Source: Defluviitalea saccharophila
GTDB lineage: Bacteria > Bacillota > Clostridia > Lachnospirales > Defluviitaleaceae
Length of the DNA: 64,000 bases
Assembly (NCBI RefSeq): GCF_038396635.1
Contig: NZ_CP121687.1
Coordinates: 744,001 to 808,000 of the forward strand
Direction: 5' to 3'
Position numbers and translations under genes: made by a program. The notes beneath the pieces were generated by a model. That model saw only the letters and a list, made by a program, of their open reading frames with translations, had not been told where the DNA came from and ran no database searches. Positions 1,235 through 32,949 of this stretch are shown one piece after another (the first letter of the stretch is position 1; every line of letters starts with the position of its first letter).

Positions 1235-2710
1235 ATGGCTACTGTAGCTTACGCAAGATACTCAAGTGATAATCAACGTCAAGAATCTATAGAAGCTCAA
1301 ATAAGGGCAATACAAGAATATTGTAGTAGACATGGTTTCTCAATATCAAAGATATATATAGATGAAGCTAAATCCGCTACAACAGACGATAGACCGCAAT
1401 TTCTTCAAATGATTAAAGATGCGGAGCATGGTATGTTTGACACTTTAATTGTACATAAGTTAGATAGATTTGCTAGAAATCGATATGATAGTGCTTTTTA
1501 CAAACGTAAATTAAAATTATCAGGAGTAAAATTAATTTCTGTCACTGAACAATTAGACGATAGCCCCGAATCAATTATATTAGAATCAGTATTGGAAGGA
1601 ATGGCTGAATACTACTCTAAGAATCTTGCAAGAGAAGTAATGAAAGGAATGAGGGAAACAGCGATGCAGTGTAAACATACCGGGGGAATTCCTCCTTTAG
1701 GATATGACGTTGCCGAGGATAAAACATATAAATTAAATGAAAAAGAAGCAATAGCAGTCAAAAAAATTTTTGAAGATTATATTAGTGGTAAATCATATCA
1801 ACAAATTATTAACGAACTTCACGAATTAGGGTATAGGACAAAAACAGATAAACTTTTCAAAAAAAATGCTATACACTCAATTCTCAAAAATGAAAAGTAT
1901 GCTGGAACTTATATTTTCAATAAAACTAAAAGAGTTAAAAATATTAATGGTGGTCAAAGAAATATAATAAAAGACGATGAAGATATAATACGGATTGAAA
2001 ACGGTATGCCTGCTATTATAACAAAAGAACAATTTGAAAAAGTACAAGAAAAACTCAAAATCAATTATAAGTACTCTCAGACATTTAAAACTAAAGAAGT
2101 ATATCTACTTACAGGAATTTTAGTATGTGGTAATTGCGGCTCACCTATGCATGGTAGGAAAAGAAAAGGTGGCCGAAATAAAAGTGTCTATAAAACGTAC
2201 ATATGTACACAGCGAAAAAATGAAAAGAAATGTGATGCAAAAGAAGTAAATAAGAGTTACATTGAGAATAAAGTTATCGAGTATTTAGAAACTGAGGTAT
2301 TTACTGATGAAAAAATAGAAACAATCGCTAGAAAAGCCTATGAATATCAGACTAAACATACTGGAGAAAGTGAAAGAATAATTAAATCGCTTGAAAAAGA
2401 ACTTGGAGTTATACAAAAGCAAATCGATAATATTATTTCTGCAATTGCAGCTGGGATGTTTCACCAATCTATGAAAGAAAAAATGGATGAACTAGAAAAT
2501 AAAAAAGCTGGTTTAGAATTTGCAATTGAAGAAGAAAAAAGAAAATCATCATTAATAATAGATATGGAAACTATACGACAACATTTATCAATTGGTAAAG
2601 AGTTAAGACTAAAATCTTTAGAAGAACAAAAAGAAATTATTCAGTCTTATGTTGAATCTGTAATCTATGATGAAGATTTCATGGATATTTCTCTAAAAAT
2701 AAACTTTTAA
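1235..2710 (+). CDS. Large serine recombinase (site-specific integrase)
   Basis: 491 residues, the normal size for large serine integrases. The N-terminal resolvase domain (about 1-150) starts with Y-A-R-Y-S-S-D-N-Q, giving Ser10 as the likely nucleophile, and carries the D-R-F-A-R-N segment. A recombinase domain follows (about 155-265), then a zinc ribbon (C-G-N-C-G around 300 with a second C-x(n)-C pair), a coiled coil (about 370-435) and a short tail. Such enzymes integrate and excise prophages, ICEs or skin-like elements at short att sites. The ATG is preceded by AAAGGATG. The gene sits at the right edge of the accessory segment, as integrases often do, next to an IS200 element and the 3' end of ssrA. 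I could not identify att core sequences. Confidence 0.92.
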   Translation: MATVAYARYSSDNQRQESIEAQIRAIQEYCSRHGFSISKIYIDEAKSATTDDRPQFLQMIKDAEHGMFDTLIVHKLDRFARNRYDSAFYKRKLKLSGVKLISVTEQLDDSPESIILESVLEGMAEYYSKNLAREVMKGMRETAMQCKHTGGIPPLGYDVAEDKTYKLNEKEAIAVKKIFEDYISGKSYQQIINELHELGYRTKTDKLFKKNAIHSILKNEKYAGTYIFNKTKRVKNINGGQRNIIKDDEDIIRIENGMPAIITKEQFEKVQEKLKINYKYSQTFKTKEVYLLTGILVCGNCGSPMHGRKRKGGRNKSVYKTYICTQRKNEKKCDAKEVNKSYIENKVIEYLETEVFTDEKIETIARKAYEYQTKHTGESERIIKSLEKELGVIQKQIDNIISAIAAGMFHQSMKEKMDELENKKAGLEFAIEEEKRKSSLIIDMETIRQHLSIGKELRLKSLEEQKEIIQSYVESVIYDEDFMDISLKINF

Positions 2711-2821: not shown

Positions 2822-3277
2822 CTACTTGCTACCCTTAAAAGGGTCCATGTATTCTTTTAGACTTATTTGATCTGACATCATATCTTCGTGTAATTGATTT
2901 TTTATATATTGTTCTATTGCCTTTTTATTTCTCCCTACCGTACTCACATAATATCCTCTGCACCAAAAGTGTCTATTTCCATATTTATATTTGAGATTCC
3001 CGAACTTCTCAAATATCCTTAAACTACTTTTCCCTTTTAGAAATCCCATAAAGCTTGATATACTTAATTTTGGTGGAATTGCTACTAGCATATGTATATG
3101 GTCTGGGCATGCATTGGCTTCTATTATCTGCACTCCTTTCCAATCACATAACTCCCGTAATATCTTTCCTATCTCTTTCTTTTTCTTTCCATATATTTCT
3201 TGTCTTCTATACTTTGGTGCAAATACTATATGATATTTGCAATCCCATTTGGTGTGTGATAAACTATTTTCATCCAT
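2822..3277 (-). CDS. tnpA: IS200-family Y1 (HUH) transposase TnpA
   Basis: 151 residues, full length for IS200 TnpA. The HUH metal motif is H-I-H at 60-62 within C-P-D-H-I-H-M-L. The catalytic tyrosine is probably Tyr124 in E-Q-Y-I-K-N-Q, near the typical Y-Y-V-S-T-V-G segment. The family moves single-stranded DNA by a peel-and-paste mechanism. The ATG has a strong AAGGAGGT site, but that site is buried in a 13-bp stem (see 3285-3342), which is consistent with the very low transposase expression known for IS200. No frameshift or missing catalytic residue is seen, so the gene appears intact. Confidence 0.93.
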   Translation of the reverse strand: MDENSLSHTKWDCKYHIVFAPKYRRQEIYGKKKKEIGKILRELCDWKGVQIIEANACPDHIHMLVAIPPKLSISSFMGFLKGKSSLRIFEKFGNLKYKYGNRHFWCRGYYVSTVGRNKKAIEQYIKNQLHEDMMSDQISLKEYMDPFKGSK

Positions 3278-3451: not shown

Positions 3452-3480
3452 TTGGCACTTTGGGACGTGCCTACGGATGA

Positions 3481-3828
3481 TGGAGGTGGGGGGAATCGAA
3501 CCCCCGTCCGAAAATCCATATATCGTGGTCTCTTCCATCATAGTCGTTACTTTGGATTTCCCTCAGTAAGACGCCTAACGACAGGCTTCAAACCTCGGTA
3601 GCTTCATAGATACGATCATCTCCGCAAAGCTTAGGAGTGAAAGTTGCCCACTAGTCGATGCCTCTTCTTAGACCGTGGGTTATCTAAGAGAGACAGCTGC
3701 TTTAATTAAGCAGCAAATGCAAAATTATCTTCTGCGTTTACTTTTAAGTTCCAGATTTTAACGCAGCTCCGGAATCTGCGGATGGCTGCCCCAATATACG
3801 TGACTCCCGTCGAAACCTGTACACCCCC
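3481..3828 (-). ncRNA. ssrA: tmRNA (transfer-messenger RNA)
   Basis: The 5' end GGGGGTGTACAGGTTTCGAC and the 3' T-arm/acceptor half with GGTTCGATTCC and CACCTCC pair as the tRNA-like domain. The tag reading frame lies at 3706-3735 and encodes AEDNFAFAA followed by TAA, matching clostridial tags of the A-E-D-N-F-A-x-A-A type. The base after the acceptor stem is A and the next three encoded bases are TCA rather than CCA, so CCA is probably added after processing. tmRNA with SmpB rescues stalled ribosomes and tags the unfinished peptide for proteolysis. smpB lies directly upstream on the same strand. Confidence 0.96.
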
Positions 3829-4424: not shown

Positions 4425-4567
4425 TATAAAAAATTTCGCTTGCAAAGCTCTCACACGAGCGCGGTCGACAAAGCCGATGTCATACAATTTGCGCGAGTGC
4501 GTATTCTGCCCTGGGGGCTTTTTATTCCATAGGAACTCCGGAGAAATTTCCTATGGGATAAAAAAGT
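4425..4567 (+). repeat. Dispersed hairpin-rich repeat, copy A
   Basis: One of three related ~140-base intergenic segments (others at 28869-29010 and 32785-32931), all in the same orientation. Shared landmarks in order: TTTCGCTTGC, GAGCGCGGTCG, AAAGCCGA, CAAT, GCGAGTG, GGCTTTTTAT, CATAGGAA, TTTCCTAT and ATAAAA. The last part folds as ATAGGAA/TTTCCTAT. It fills most of the 350-base gap between smpB and the S41 peptidase. It is GC-richer than its surroundings. No coding potential is evident. Confidence 0.75.
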
Positions 4568-4663: not shown

Positions 4664-5614
4664 ATGTTTCGGAAAAATAGATCAATGTTTGTGTCTATGG
4701 ACCAAAAGTATCAAAAGCTAAAAAGAAGATTTTATACCCTTCTTTTCTTATTTCTTCTTTTTATATGTGGGACAACCTATTATCTGTATTTAAACTACGA
4801 CTATTTTGCATTCAAACATCTCATCAGCCAAAACTATATTTATACGGATACTTTGGATGAACTTTATAAAAAAGAACTGAATCGGGATGTAAACGGAGAA
4901 TATTATAAAAACTTCGACAATCTTGTTATGTCTATCGTGACACGAGAAATAAGAGAATTAAATAATGATAAATATACATATCAATACCTTCCTGAAAACT
5001 ATAAGAAAACTAAGGAAGAAGAAAAAAATGAAGCAAAAAAATCTTATGTCGAAGAAATTTCTAAAGAGATCGTATATCTTAAGCTTACGAATTTCTCAGA
5101 ATACACCCAGGACTTTATGAAAAAGCAAACGAAAACACTAAAAAACTACCCCAATATTATTATCGATTTAAGAGACAACCTGGGCGGAGATATCTTTGCT
5201 CAATATTATATGAGCGATTTATTTCTTCCAAAAGATAAAACGATTTCCTATGACATCACTCGTTCTAAGCTATTTACAAGAATTGTAAAGAGCAAAAGGA
5301 AACAATTGCTTCAGTATAATAATATTATTATCTTACAAAACGGCAATACTGCCAGTTCCAGCGAGGGATTTATCTCCTCATTAAAGGATAACCTGGACAA
5401 TGTTATACTAATAGGGGAAAATACCTTTGGAAAGGGAATCGGGCAATTTACTCTTCCTTTGAAAAAAGGATTTGCTATTAAAGCAACTACTCTTCTTTGG
5501 AATACACCAAAAAATATTAACATCCAAGGGGTAGGTATAAAACCGGATATAGAATATACAAAAGAAGATATTGTTGATTATGCAGTTGCATACATCAATA
5601 AACAGCAAAAATAA
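4664..5614 (+). CDS. Membrane-anchored S41-family peptidase (Ctp-like), no PDZ
   Basis: 316 residues. A short basic N-terminus is followed by one membrane segment (about 23-46), so the catalytic part should lie outside the membrane. The S41 signatures are I-D-L-R-D-N-L-G-G (about 167-175), N-G-N-T-A-S-S-S-E (226-234, nucleophile probably Ser231 or 232) and G-E-N-T-F-G-K-G (251-258, general base Lys257), with the expected ~25-residue Ser-Lys spacing. The usual PDZ domain is absent; the segment between the membrane helix and the core is short and charged. The ATG has AGGAGG at good spacing. C-terminal processing peptidases include the sporulation protease CtpB, but a sporulation role here is only suggested by the possible mother-cell promoter. 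It is monocistronic, closed by a terminator. Confidence 0.85.
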   Translation: MFRKNRSMFVSMDQKYQKLKRRFYTLLFLFLLFICGTTYYLYLNYDYFAFKHLISQNYIYTDTLDELYKKELNRDVNGEYYKNFDNLVMSIVTREIRELNNDKYTYQYLPENYKKTKEEEKNEAKKSYVEEISKEIVYLKLTNFSEYTQDFMKKQTKTLKNYPNIIIDLRDNLGGDIFAQYYMSDLFLPKDKTISYDITRSKLFTRIVKSKRKQLLQYNNIIILQNGNTASSSEGFISSLKDNLDNVILIGENTFGKGIGQFTLPLKKGFAIKATTLLWNTPKNINIQGVGIKPDIEYTKEDIVDYAVAYINKQQK

Positions 5615-28868: not shown

Positions 28869-29010
28869 TTAACAAGAAAAAGTTTCTCTTTCGAATCTCT
28901 CTCCAAACGCAGTCGGCAAAGCCGACAAAATCCAATACGCACGAGTATACATTCTGTCAGTAGGACCTTTTTTCATAAGAAATCTAGAGGAACTTCCTAT
29001 ATAATAAAAT
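28869..29010 (+). repeat. Dispersed hairpin-rich repeat, copy B
   Basis: Most diverged of the three copies (others 4425-4567 and 32785-32931). Retains AACAAGAAAAAGTTTC, the stem GTCGGC/GCCGAC, CAATACGC, CGAGT, TTTTTTCATA, GAAATCTAGAGGAAC and TTCCTAT. It fills the gap between the Asn-rich gene and the Mn-catalase gene terminator. Confidence 0.7.
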
Positions 29011-29031
29011 TGCGCCTATAGATTAGGCGCA
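29011..29031 (-). terminator. Terminator of the Mn-catalase-like gene
   Basis: TGCGCCTA/TAGGCGCA with a 5-base loop, followed on the minus strand by ATTTTATT. Confidence 0.75.
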
Positions 29032-29038
29032 TTAATGT

Positions 29039-29728
29039 TTAATGTATCACTTCTGGAGCTTGTTGAGAATCGTTAAAACTAGGAGGAATTCCTTCCGGGG
29101 AATCAAAATATTTATCTGGTGTAGATAAATCAAAATATAGCTTAGAATCAGGAGTGACTCCAAAATCTCTATTGGAACCGGTATCTTTAATTTTGTTAAA
29201 CGCTTCTCTGAACAAAGCATTATGAGCTTCTTCACGATTTAAAAGAAAGTCAATCGTTTCTTTGACATAAGGGTCGTTGATTTGACGGTAGAGATATTCA
29301 TACACTACTTTTGCCCTTTGTTCTGCTGCTATATCGGACAATAAATCTGCTGCCAAGTCTCCAGTAACATTCACATAGTCCGCAGTCCAAGGATGCCCTG
29401 AACTATTGACTAACATAGGAGAAAGACCTGATAAAACTTGATTTTCGATTTCTCCTAATGATACTTTTTCTACTTCTAAATCATGCCCATTTAAAAGATT
29501 TATGGTTTGAGCGATCATTTCCATATGACTTAATTCTTCTGAAGCAATATCTAAGAATAAATCTTTTATAGCTTTATCCTTTATTCTAAAACTCTGGGAC
29601 ATATACTGCATTGCCGCTTTAAGCTCCCCATTTGCACCGCCCAGTTGTTCTTGAAGCAATGCCGCATATTGGGGATTGGGTTCTTTAACCCTTACTTCTC
29701 TCAATAGGCTCTTTTCATGCTTGAACAT
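29039..29728 (-). CDS. Manganese-catalase family protein (CotJC-like)
   Basis: 229 residues from the ATG; a GTG three codons earlier sits too close to AGGATG. A ferritin-like four-helix core with the di-metal ligands in E-L-K-A-A-M-Q-Y, E-E-L-S-H-M-E-M and R-E-E-A-H-N-A-L-F. The family includes Mn catalases and the spore-coat protein CotJC, which in Clostridia degrade peroxide in the coat. A spore role is inferred from the lineage; no cotJA/cotJB partners are adjacent. The C-terminus (D-L-S-T-P..., P-E-G-I-P-P-S-F) is the usual short tail wrapping the hexamer. Confidence 0.88.
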   Translation of the reverse strand: MFKHEKSLLREVRVKEPNPQYAALLQEQLGGANGELKAAMQYMSQSFRIKDKAIKDLFLDIASEELSHMEMIAQTINLLNGHDLEVEKVSLGEIENQVLSGLSPMLVNSSGHPWTADYVNVTGDLAADLLSDIAAEQRAKVVYEYLYRQINDPYVKETIDFLLNREEAHNALFREAFNKIKDTGSNRDFGVTPDSKLYFDLSTPDKYFDSPEGIPPSFNDSQQAPEVIH

Positions 29729-29851
29729 ATCCGTCACATCCTAAGATTAAATTGATTTCATCATAACAATATCTATTGTATATGAAATCAATAATAGTCT
29801 GCTCTAATTTGAGGAATAATATATGCTGTAATATCTTCTAAATTTATAAGT

Positions 29852-32784: not shown

Positions 32785-32931
32785 TACAAGAAAGAGTTTC
32801 GCAAGCGAAACTCTCGCGCCGAGCGCGGTCGGTAAAGCCGACAAAATACAATACGCGCGAGTGTGCATCCTTGCCCGGAAGGCTTTTTATTACATAGGAA
32901 ATCTGAAAGAATTTCCTATACAATAAAAAAA
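32785..32931 (+). repeat. Dispersed hairpin-rich repeat, copy C
   Basis: Best-folded copy of the family. It shows three stems: GAGTTTCGC/GCGAAACTC (about 32794-32813), GTCGG/CCGAC (about 32828-32842) and ATAGGAAAT/ATTTCCTAT (about 32894-32919). It is located between lysA and the tRNA-Gln 3' end, where it may also act on transcript ends. Confidence 0.75.
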
Positions 32932-32949
32932 GCACCTTTTTAGGTGCCT

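Follow-up and report, generated by a model that had tools for sequence, protein, structure and literature searches.

Three segments of similar length, each in its own intergenic region of the Defluviitalea saccharophila chromosome, raise the question of what kind of element they represent and how it came to lie where it does. They occur in a window of 64,000 nt (C1:744001-808000), the whole stretch of DNA that was analysed, within a single-contig genome (G000) of 3,014,560 bases. The initial annotation described them as copies of one dispersed repeat in the same orientation, and all three copies are present. Here, the sense strand is the one on which the terminator is read first, and the + orientation of that annotation is the antisense strand. 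The relevant features are as follows.

4425-4564, minus (sense) strand: copy A of the element, decayed; proximal end without a terminator stem
28874-29010, minus strand: copy B, decayed; follows the Mn-catalase gene terminator
29011-29032, minus strand: host intrinsic terminator hairpin of the Mn-catalase gene, abutting copy B
29039-29737, minus strand: Mn-catalase gene, the upstream host gene of copy B
32788-32929, minus strand: copy C, the intact window copy; behind the terminator of an rRNA-tRNA operon
32884-32929, minus strand: long terminator-proximal hairpin (H4) of copy C, whose first T's form the T tract of the terminator
32930-32949, minus strand: host intrinsic terminator hairpin of the rRNA-tRNA operon, abutting copy C
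2822-3277, minus strand: IS200-type Y1 transposase gene behind the tmRNA terminator; a parallel and candidate mobiliser

Pairwise identity is 67% between A and B and 75% for both A-C and B-C. A family covariance model gives bit scores of 119.8 (A), 85.9 (B), and 157.2 (C), but all three are among its training rows and the scores are not independent; independent support for the repeat family comes instead from the genome-wide set of copies. As had been proposed, C is well folded and A and B have partly lost their fold (folding z-scores of -5.6, -2.7, and -2.2 for C, A, and B). The claim of a GC content above that of the flanks holds fully for A but not for B (0.365, close to the 0.36 of its right flank) or C (0.444, below the 0.53 of its tRNA-side flank). 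Likewise, the three gaps are unrelated in gene content, as claimed, but B and C each lie directly behind an intrinsic terminator on the minus strand; A does not.

Copy number and distribution

With copy C as the query, BLAST locates 41 places in the D. saccharophila genome (E <= 2e-11), a lower bound because the best 40 of 121 candidates were scored. Adding copy B as a query brings the number to 42, made up of 38 full-length and four long-truncated copies. The element is approximately 141 nt long, and the 38 full copies are 79% to 99% identical to their consensus (median 89%). A pattern for H4 (<= 3 mismatches) occurs at 73 sites in this genome and at 0 sites for the reversed control; 40 of the 73 belong to the 42 copies, and the other 33, in 31 stretches, are incomplete copies. 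Two clusters of three copies each occupy ~5 kb (2002876-2007973) and ~8 kb (2924815-2933014). A second dispersed repeat of ~75 nt (GAAATAAGAAAGTT...AACTTTCTTATTTC) was seen at L230 (G000:1247000-1247800) and in the flanks of L002 and L017; the query part 1964-2041 has over a dozen matches in G001/G002.

A covariance model of the element (R1) matches at least 74 of 392 genomes of the order and at least 39 of 174 genera, these counts being lower bounds with at most 8 candidates scored per genome; in many positive genomes all 8 matched. The element is found in the host's own genus (G000, G001, G002, and G062) as well as in numerous members of a second family (f6), and R1 detected none in four other members of the host's own family (G003-G006). 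Its conserved core is also present exactly in two Candidatus Epulonipiscium MAGs (8 stretches) among NCBI Lachnospirales.

Plasmid, phage, or viral spread was considered and set aside, as neither PLSDB nor INPHARED contains a match at blastn sensitivity and one exact 21-mer of the element has no match in IMG/VR. A known RNA family was also rejected as the identity of the element: Rfam 15 has no family match in the window at gathering scores, and 20 further loci searched at E <= 0.5 had nothing above threshold over the element, the sub-threshold matches there being chance hairpin matches. The covariance search of the genome and its relatives that the initial annotation had recommended yields far more than three copies, with covarying pairs and no known Rfam family.

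Anatomy and fold

On the sense strand, the order is host terminator stem, T tract, H4, H3, H2, H1, and T-rich end. Orientation is fixed, with H4 beside the terminator. The parts, all given on the sense strand, are as follows.

H4, next to the terminator: long hairpin, TTTTTATTGCATAGGAAAT...ATTTCCTATGCAATAAAAA
H3, after H4: short hairpin, GCCCTCCGGGC
H2, after H3: composite stem carrying a hairpin at its tip, plus a conserved single-stranded run
H1: hairpin and T-rich distal end, TTTCTT, then usually G

H1 with its T's resembles a second terminator. At L157 and L064, a further H4 piece lies directly behind the H1 and T-rich end of a first element; to judge from this arrangement, the element's own distal end seems to serve as a landing site.

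Copies from other genera follow the same plan with different hairpin sequences. Double changes are found in 15 pairs among the 38 own copies and in 40 of 49 pairs of alignment A4 (29 rows, one from the host species). Among 76 copies of other genera, 45 of 49 pairs are changed on both sides, with 586 doubly changed cells; the alignments (A4, A5, and A7) were fitted to the model and lean towards structure, and their rows are related within genera, so these counts do not represent independent events. None of 500 shuffles of the 76 cross-genus copies reaches any of five covariation measures, and shifting the partner by 1-3 columns lowers pairing from 95.7% to 35-53%. The fold is genuine, and of the earlier suggestion of a structured RNA, the structure is strongly supported by this cross-genus covariation.

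Covariation within the single genome was dropped as proof of RNA selection, since the H4 arms look partly host-derived and partly corrected. The arms beside the host T tract look host-derived in L231, L244, L009, L022, and L026 and matched in L234, L029, and L037, a pattern that looks as correction of an imperfect palindrome would make it.

Insertion behind intrinsic terminators

The sense left flank of nearly every copy in the D. saccharophila genome ends in a hairpin right before the T tract. A terminator score >= 18 is reached by 34 of 42 proximal flanks in this genome versus 1 of 42 distal flanks, and by 70 of 76 cross-genus copies versus 4 of 75 distal flanks and 7 of 380 shuffled sequences. 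The terminators used include that of the rRNA-tRNA operon (copy C) and, in other genera, those of T-box and preQ1 leaders. At L117, L118, and L131, a T-box or preQ1 riboswitch match ends shortly before the element, on the 3' side of the leader; an element so placed may become part of the regulated leader.

Comparison with relatives reveals the empty sites for which the initial annotation had proposed a search, with insertion behind the T tract. Across the region 1999500-2011500, sites 2002876 and 2007825 are occupied in G000 and empty in G001, where the former has ~30 nt of different sequence in its place. For 12 copies of relatives without a counterpart in the fetched G000 loci, the joined flanks matched 11 G000 places. 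Seven of these are without the element, six as clean or nearly clean empty sites (L134-L138 and L140) and one with its terminator rearranged (L139); two hold only an H4 piece (L141 and L143), and two are too diverged to read (L142 and L144). The clearest full-length pairs (L067/L136, L085/L137, L073/L135, L080/L138, and L079/L134) read TTTTTR, the T tract and a purine, to the left of the junction and N, where the host resumes, to the right. The inserted piece ends ...CTCTTTCTTG, with no target duplication and no host loss. L143 and L234 have also lost ~16-20 nt of host DNA (~20 nt at L234), as a later deletion would cause. The element is almost certainly mobile, inserting behind intrinsic terminators.

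This picture matches the proposal of a family that spread, by a mechanism left unspecified, and then decayed: empty sites, many copies, and neutral decay within the genome all support it. A MITE-like element in the strict sense is not what is found. The two end hairpins differ, neither end is an inverted copy of the other, and the readable empty sites contain no target-site duplication beyond the element's own T-rich end. The further suggestion of a transcription-end element had the place right, but the terminator is the host locus's own and the element is a guest behind it.

A related alternative holds that the repeat is not mobile and is kept by selection as a functional cis element, either an aid to termination or mRNA 3'-end formation or an sRNA gene. 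The strong covariation, the general place behind terminators, and the second terminator-like hairpin at the distal end are all compatible with this idea, as is site 2006010, where G000 and G002 carry the element and G001 a degraded copy. However, 7 of the 11 matched G000 places lack the element (2 hold an H4 piece and 2 are unreadable), the own-genome copies have no excess of G.T over A.C pairs and hence no sign of selection on the fold (see below), and the element sits behind riboswitch and T-box leaders as well. Retention as a cis element is thus very improbable.

Incomplete copies

Among the 33 incomplete copies found through H4, a search that would miss shorter copies and those lacking this hairpin, 30 are truncated distally at nt 34-96 and retain the terminator side, as do the four long-truncated copies. 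The other three (L221, L251, and L228, all in the host genome) are internal deletions in which the middle is lost and the distal end kept. The truncations cluster: of 34 end points, comprising 30 sites read by hand (the three internal deletions left out) and four estimated from BLAST, 13 fall at nt 44-47, the end of H4 (p 5e-10 versus uniform). Five of the 11 end points beyond nt 56 fall at nt 88-97, and other clusters lie at 49-55, 63-67, and 86-111. They coincide with the places at which synthesis on the antisense strand, begun at the T tract, would run into H3, H2, and the H2 tip.

For 26 of the incomplete sites, the orthologous places in G001/G002 were looked for, and some of these sites had no readable orthologue. 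L241, an H4-only copy ending at nt 47, is an exact insertion between TTTTTA and TGAAAT when compared with L310 of G001, and L227, L231, L243, L244, and L246 are insertions exact to approximately five bases. Given the exact and near-exact insertions, at least some truncations look to have been made at insertion. Four incomplete copies (L222, L235b, L237b, and L243) are common to G002.

In G001 and G002, approximately 23 terminator-side pieces were counted versus 8 distal pieces among the best 40 of 210 and 40 of 164 candidates; 14 partial pieces from these genomes were chosen for matching the terminator side. Six of seven fetched distal-type pieces (L331, L332, and L334-L337) lie behind a terminator with H4 lost partly or wholly; four of the six have also lost H3, and at least two losses occurred at a short TGCA repeat. 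In the seventh, L333, the terminator side is absent altogether. Internal hairpin loss of this kind would fit either a copying enzyme that skips part of its template or DNA slippage at a later time. These internal deletions blunt the argument from truncation, because slippage on palindromes would give the same result.

The same observations bear on DNA template switching without a dedicated enzyme. According to this explanation, a nascent strand paused at a terminator would anneal through its T-tract 3' end to the A tract of another copy's + strand, copy it, and return. Template switching shares the priming geometry, end-point clustering, and replication polarity, makes a reverse transcriptase or transposase unnecessary, and typically produces hairpin skipping and H4 arm matching, as seen in the host-like arms of L231 and L244 versus the matched arms of L234, L029, and L037. 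However, the constant distal end of the 38 full copies, ...CTCTTTCTTG, implies a template with a defined end rather than a chromosome, and template switching by itself leaves the one-strand fold conserved across genera unexplained. On this evidence, it is a distinctly improbable route.

Replication polarity and the strand that folds

With replication taken to start at dnaA (1,913,290) and to end at the point opposite, 36 of 38 full copies are co-directional with replication in the sense orientation, as are 4 of 4 long-truncated copies, 7 of 7 further copies >= 60 nt, and 16 of 23 copies < 60 nt. The difference in polarity between full copies and those < 60 nt is suggestive only (Fisher p 0.02). 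Leading-strand genes make up ~74% of the window by a rough count by eye, near the 16/23 value.

A folded strand tolerates G.T pairs more than A.C pairs, and the reverse is true of its complement. Across other genera, the + (antisense) strand has 101 G.T versus 28 A.C pairs with the model fitted to that strand and still 98 versus 34 with the model fitted to the opposite strand, the latter count reading as 34 G.T versus 98 A.C on the terminator-side (sense) strand itself. The excess is seen in changes derived from both G-C and A-U pairs; H1 alone has almost no wobble pairs. This asymmetry indicates that it is the antisense strand, relative to the upstream gene, that folds in the propagating form. 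The same test on the own-genome copies alone finds no asymmetry (G.T 68 versus A.C 80, with the pair that has a G.U majority left out), which points to neutral decay with no sign of selection on the fold. The excess thus belongs to propagating lineages and not to dead copies.

Polarity and folding strand bear directly on the main rival explanation, a non-autonomous DNA element of the IS200/IS605 type (Y1, HUH) mobilised in trans by a Y1 transposase. Here, the terminator-side strand, while in the lagging-strand template, would be cut at the T tract and would move as a single-stranded circle, and incomplete copies would be later deletions at hairpins, which do occur internally. A lagging-strand preference is described for the IS200/IS605 family in one account (PMC6006769). 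The host genome carries five near-identical copies of an IS200-type insertion sequence (2822-3277 and four other sites), and by unscored inspection by eye, 5 of 5 directly follow a terminator, in the same orientation each time and running with replication; 7 of 20 Y1 loci from other genomes are behind terminators too, by the same kind of reading. Further likenesses are the lack of target duplication, a short T-rich target with insertion on its 3' side, a hairpin at either end, and a distal end (TTTCTTG) that resembles the target. Moreover, Y1 is present in 29 of 36 element-bearing genomes versus 2 of 10 without an element match, and it co-occurs with the element about as well as the reverse transcriptase domain RVT_1 (29/36 versus 27/36). 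Against this, the ends of the host's own IS200 share no sequence with the element, the search for Y1 drew a blank in 7 of 36 element-bearing genomes, and the opposite strand folds, the strand that Y1 requires being the one with the A.C excess. Neither the exact H4-only insertion that L241 appears to be nor the clustering of end points is expected. An IS200-type route is therefore unlikely, though it deserves more weight than the other rivals.

Two further loci were noted. A large serine recombinase gene at 1235-2710 (+) of the window, with Resolvase, Recombinase, and zinc ribbon domains, is near the tmRNA at 3478-3828 (-) and is possibly part of an element integrated at ssrA. At L061 (G000:2895574-2898906), a single-copy RAYT-like Y1 gene with a 327-aa frame is enclosed by an inverted pair of ~31 nt. 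The RAYT-like Y1 gene at C1:2897074 was rejected as a mobiliser, as it is flanked by a different inverted repeat.

Proposed copying from antisense RNA

Taken together, the empty sites, incomplete copies, polarity, and folding strand fit T-tract-primed copying of an antisense template with defined ends, and cut-and-paste of the sense strand explains them less easily. Template-primed copying has somewhat better than an even chance of being correct. RNA is the simplest template, and the odds that the template is RNA fall a little short of even. The preferred reading, to which we assign a probability of roughly 0.4, is a non-autonomous mobile element, perhaps SINE-like, that is copied from RNA primed at terminator T tracts.

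Under this reading, RNA of the antisense strand would be the template, and its 3' end, ...AAUAAAAA, would pair with a terminator T tract exposed at the replication fork. Primed by the 3' end of the T tract, a reverse transcriptase supplied in trans would then copy H4, H3, H2, and H1 in that order, and completion would yield a full copy. A stall at a hairpin would leave a truncated copy to be sealed in, and skipping of a hairpin would give an internally deleted copy. The base of H4 would pair with the host T tract, and correction of the resulting imperfect palindrome would make the H4 arms covary within one genome. The process would amount to SINE-like target-primed copying at docking sites also used by group IIC introns. 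The most specific version, a bacterial SINE whose ~141-nt structured RNA is reverse transcribed in trans onto terminator T tracts at replication forks, is tentative and more doubtful than not.

The search for an enzyme gives a mixed answer. RVT_1 was matched in 27 of the 36 element-bearing genomes examined; it was not found in the other 9, including G001, which is listed as 100% complete, and this counts against the RNA reading. RVT_1 in the host genome is confined to two copies of one group II intron. These two near-identical introns are located at L041 and L042 (G000 near 5,500 and 2,582,100), each with RF02003, RF00029, and a 434-aa RT frame. The idea that the element is part of the genome's group II introns was rejected: they match D1D4-4, and no terminator was seen before them. 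Among 58 RT and Y1 loci (L163-L220), none has the element's long hairpin beside the gene, and so no autonomous partner was found in this set; the only model matches there are two weak ones, both at L200 (25.8 and 24.7 bits). A promoter at the presumed RNA 5' end was also discarded, as upstream sequences were not enriched (9/12 matches in 25 of 123, versus 9 or more in 17 of 123 shuffled sequences). Copy A, which has no terminator, was counted against the preferred reading as well.

Relation to known elements

Group IIC introns insert directly behind intrinsic terminators, as one paper describes (PMC4424553), and another describes recognition of a DNA stem-loop as the target, with primers supplied by replication forks (PMC10190682). 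In the present genomes, a terminator hairpin lies upstream at 8 of 9 group IIC (RF02001) loci, as read by eye and unscored. The element has the same target behind intrinsic terminators. However, it is 141 nt rather than a catalytic intron, it does not begin with GTGYG, and Rfam finds no group II match (domain V/catalytic core) on any copy searched. Moreover, a group IIC intron folds on the sense strand, whereas the folded strand of the element is antisense to the upstream gene.

PATEs are described as palindrome-associated, ends-only derivatives of IS200/IS605 (PMC7290912). Like IS200/IS605 elements and PATEs, the element lacks terminal inverted repeats and target duplication, inserts 3' of a short fixed sequence, and has end hairpins and a replication-strand bias; the local IS200 occupies the same terminator niche. 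Unlike them, it has ends not common to this genome's IS200, folds on the opposite strand, and has many incomplete copies, most of them one-sided. None of the 29 Y1 loci from other genomes (L192-L220) carries the long hairpin of the element.

Eukaryotic SINEs are short, structured, non-coding units of the non-LTR kind with an A-rich 3' end, frequent 5' truncation, and many decaying copies, and they depend on a reverse transcriptase supplied in trans. The element resembles them in being a short, structured, non-coding unit with an A-rich 3' end and many decaying copies, and it also has a conserved fold on the presumed RNA strand. Truncation on the presumed 5' side is frequent among the copies found through the terminator side, and copies that are internally deleted or lack the terminator side occur besides. 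It differs in being bacterial, in lacking a target duplication, in that no autonomous partner with a common tail was found (58 RT/Y1 loci), and in that its RNA is presumed.

Intergenic repeats of bacteria offer two further comparisons. The bcr1-type repeats of the Bacillus cereus group are intergenic and similar in size to the element; the likeness is by description alone and in different bacteria, and serves as a lead only. REP/BIME sequences, like the element, are intergenic palindromic repeats in tens of copies, and REP/RAYT palindromes are described as carrying GTAG or CGTC tags (PMC3733652). Unlike REP/BIME, the element is several times longer, its consensus has neither tag, and it is fixed behind terminators.

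In searches of open-licence papers, no paper describing the element stood out, and the repeat family appears to be new and so far unnamed. In kind, it represents at minimum a new form of non-autonomous mobile element; if its template is RNA, it may even belong to a new class.

Biological implications

Within a major order of bacteria from guts and digesters, the repeat is an abundant and widespread mobile element. The region just past an intrinsic terminator emerges as a landing site common to at least three mobile systems: group IIC introns, IS200, and the element described here. By inserting there, the element alters gene ends, including those of riboswitch and T-box leaders, and thus bears on both annotation and regulation. 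Copying from RNA, if confirmed, would settle whether SINE-like parasites exist in bacteria and would open terminator-primed copying to direct tests. Should this prove true, the element would represent a bacterial class of non-LTR-like, non-autonomous retroelements that are neither introns, retrons, nor DGRs.
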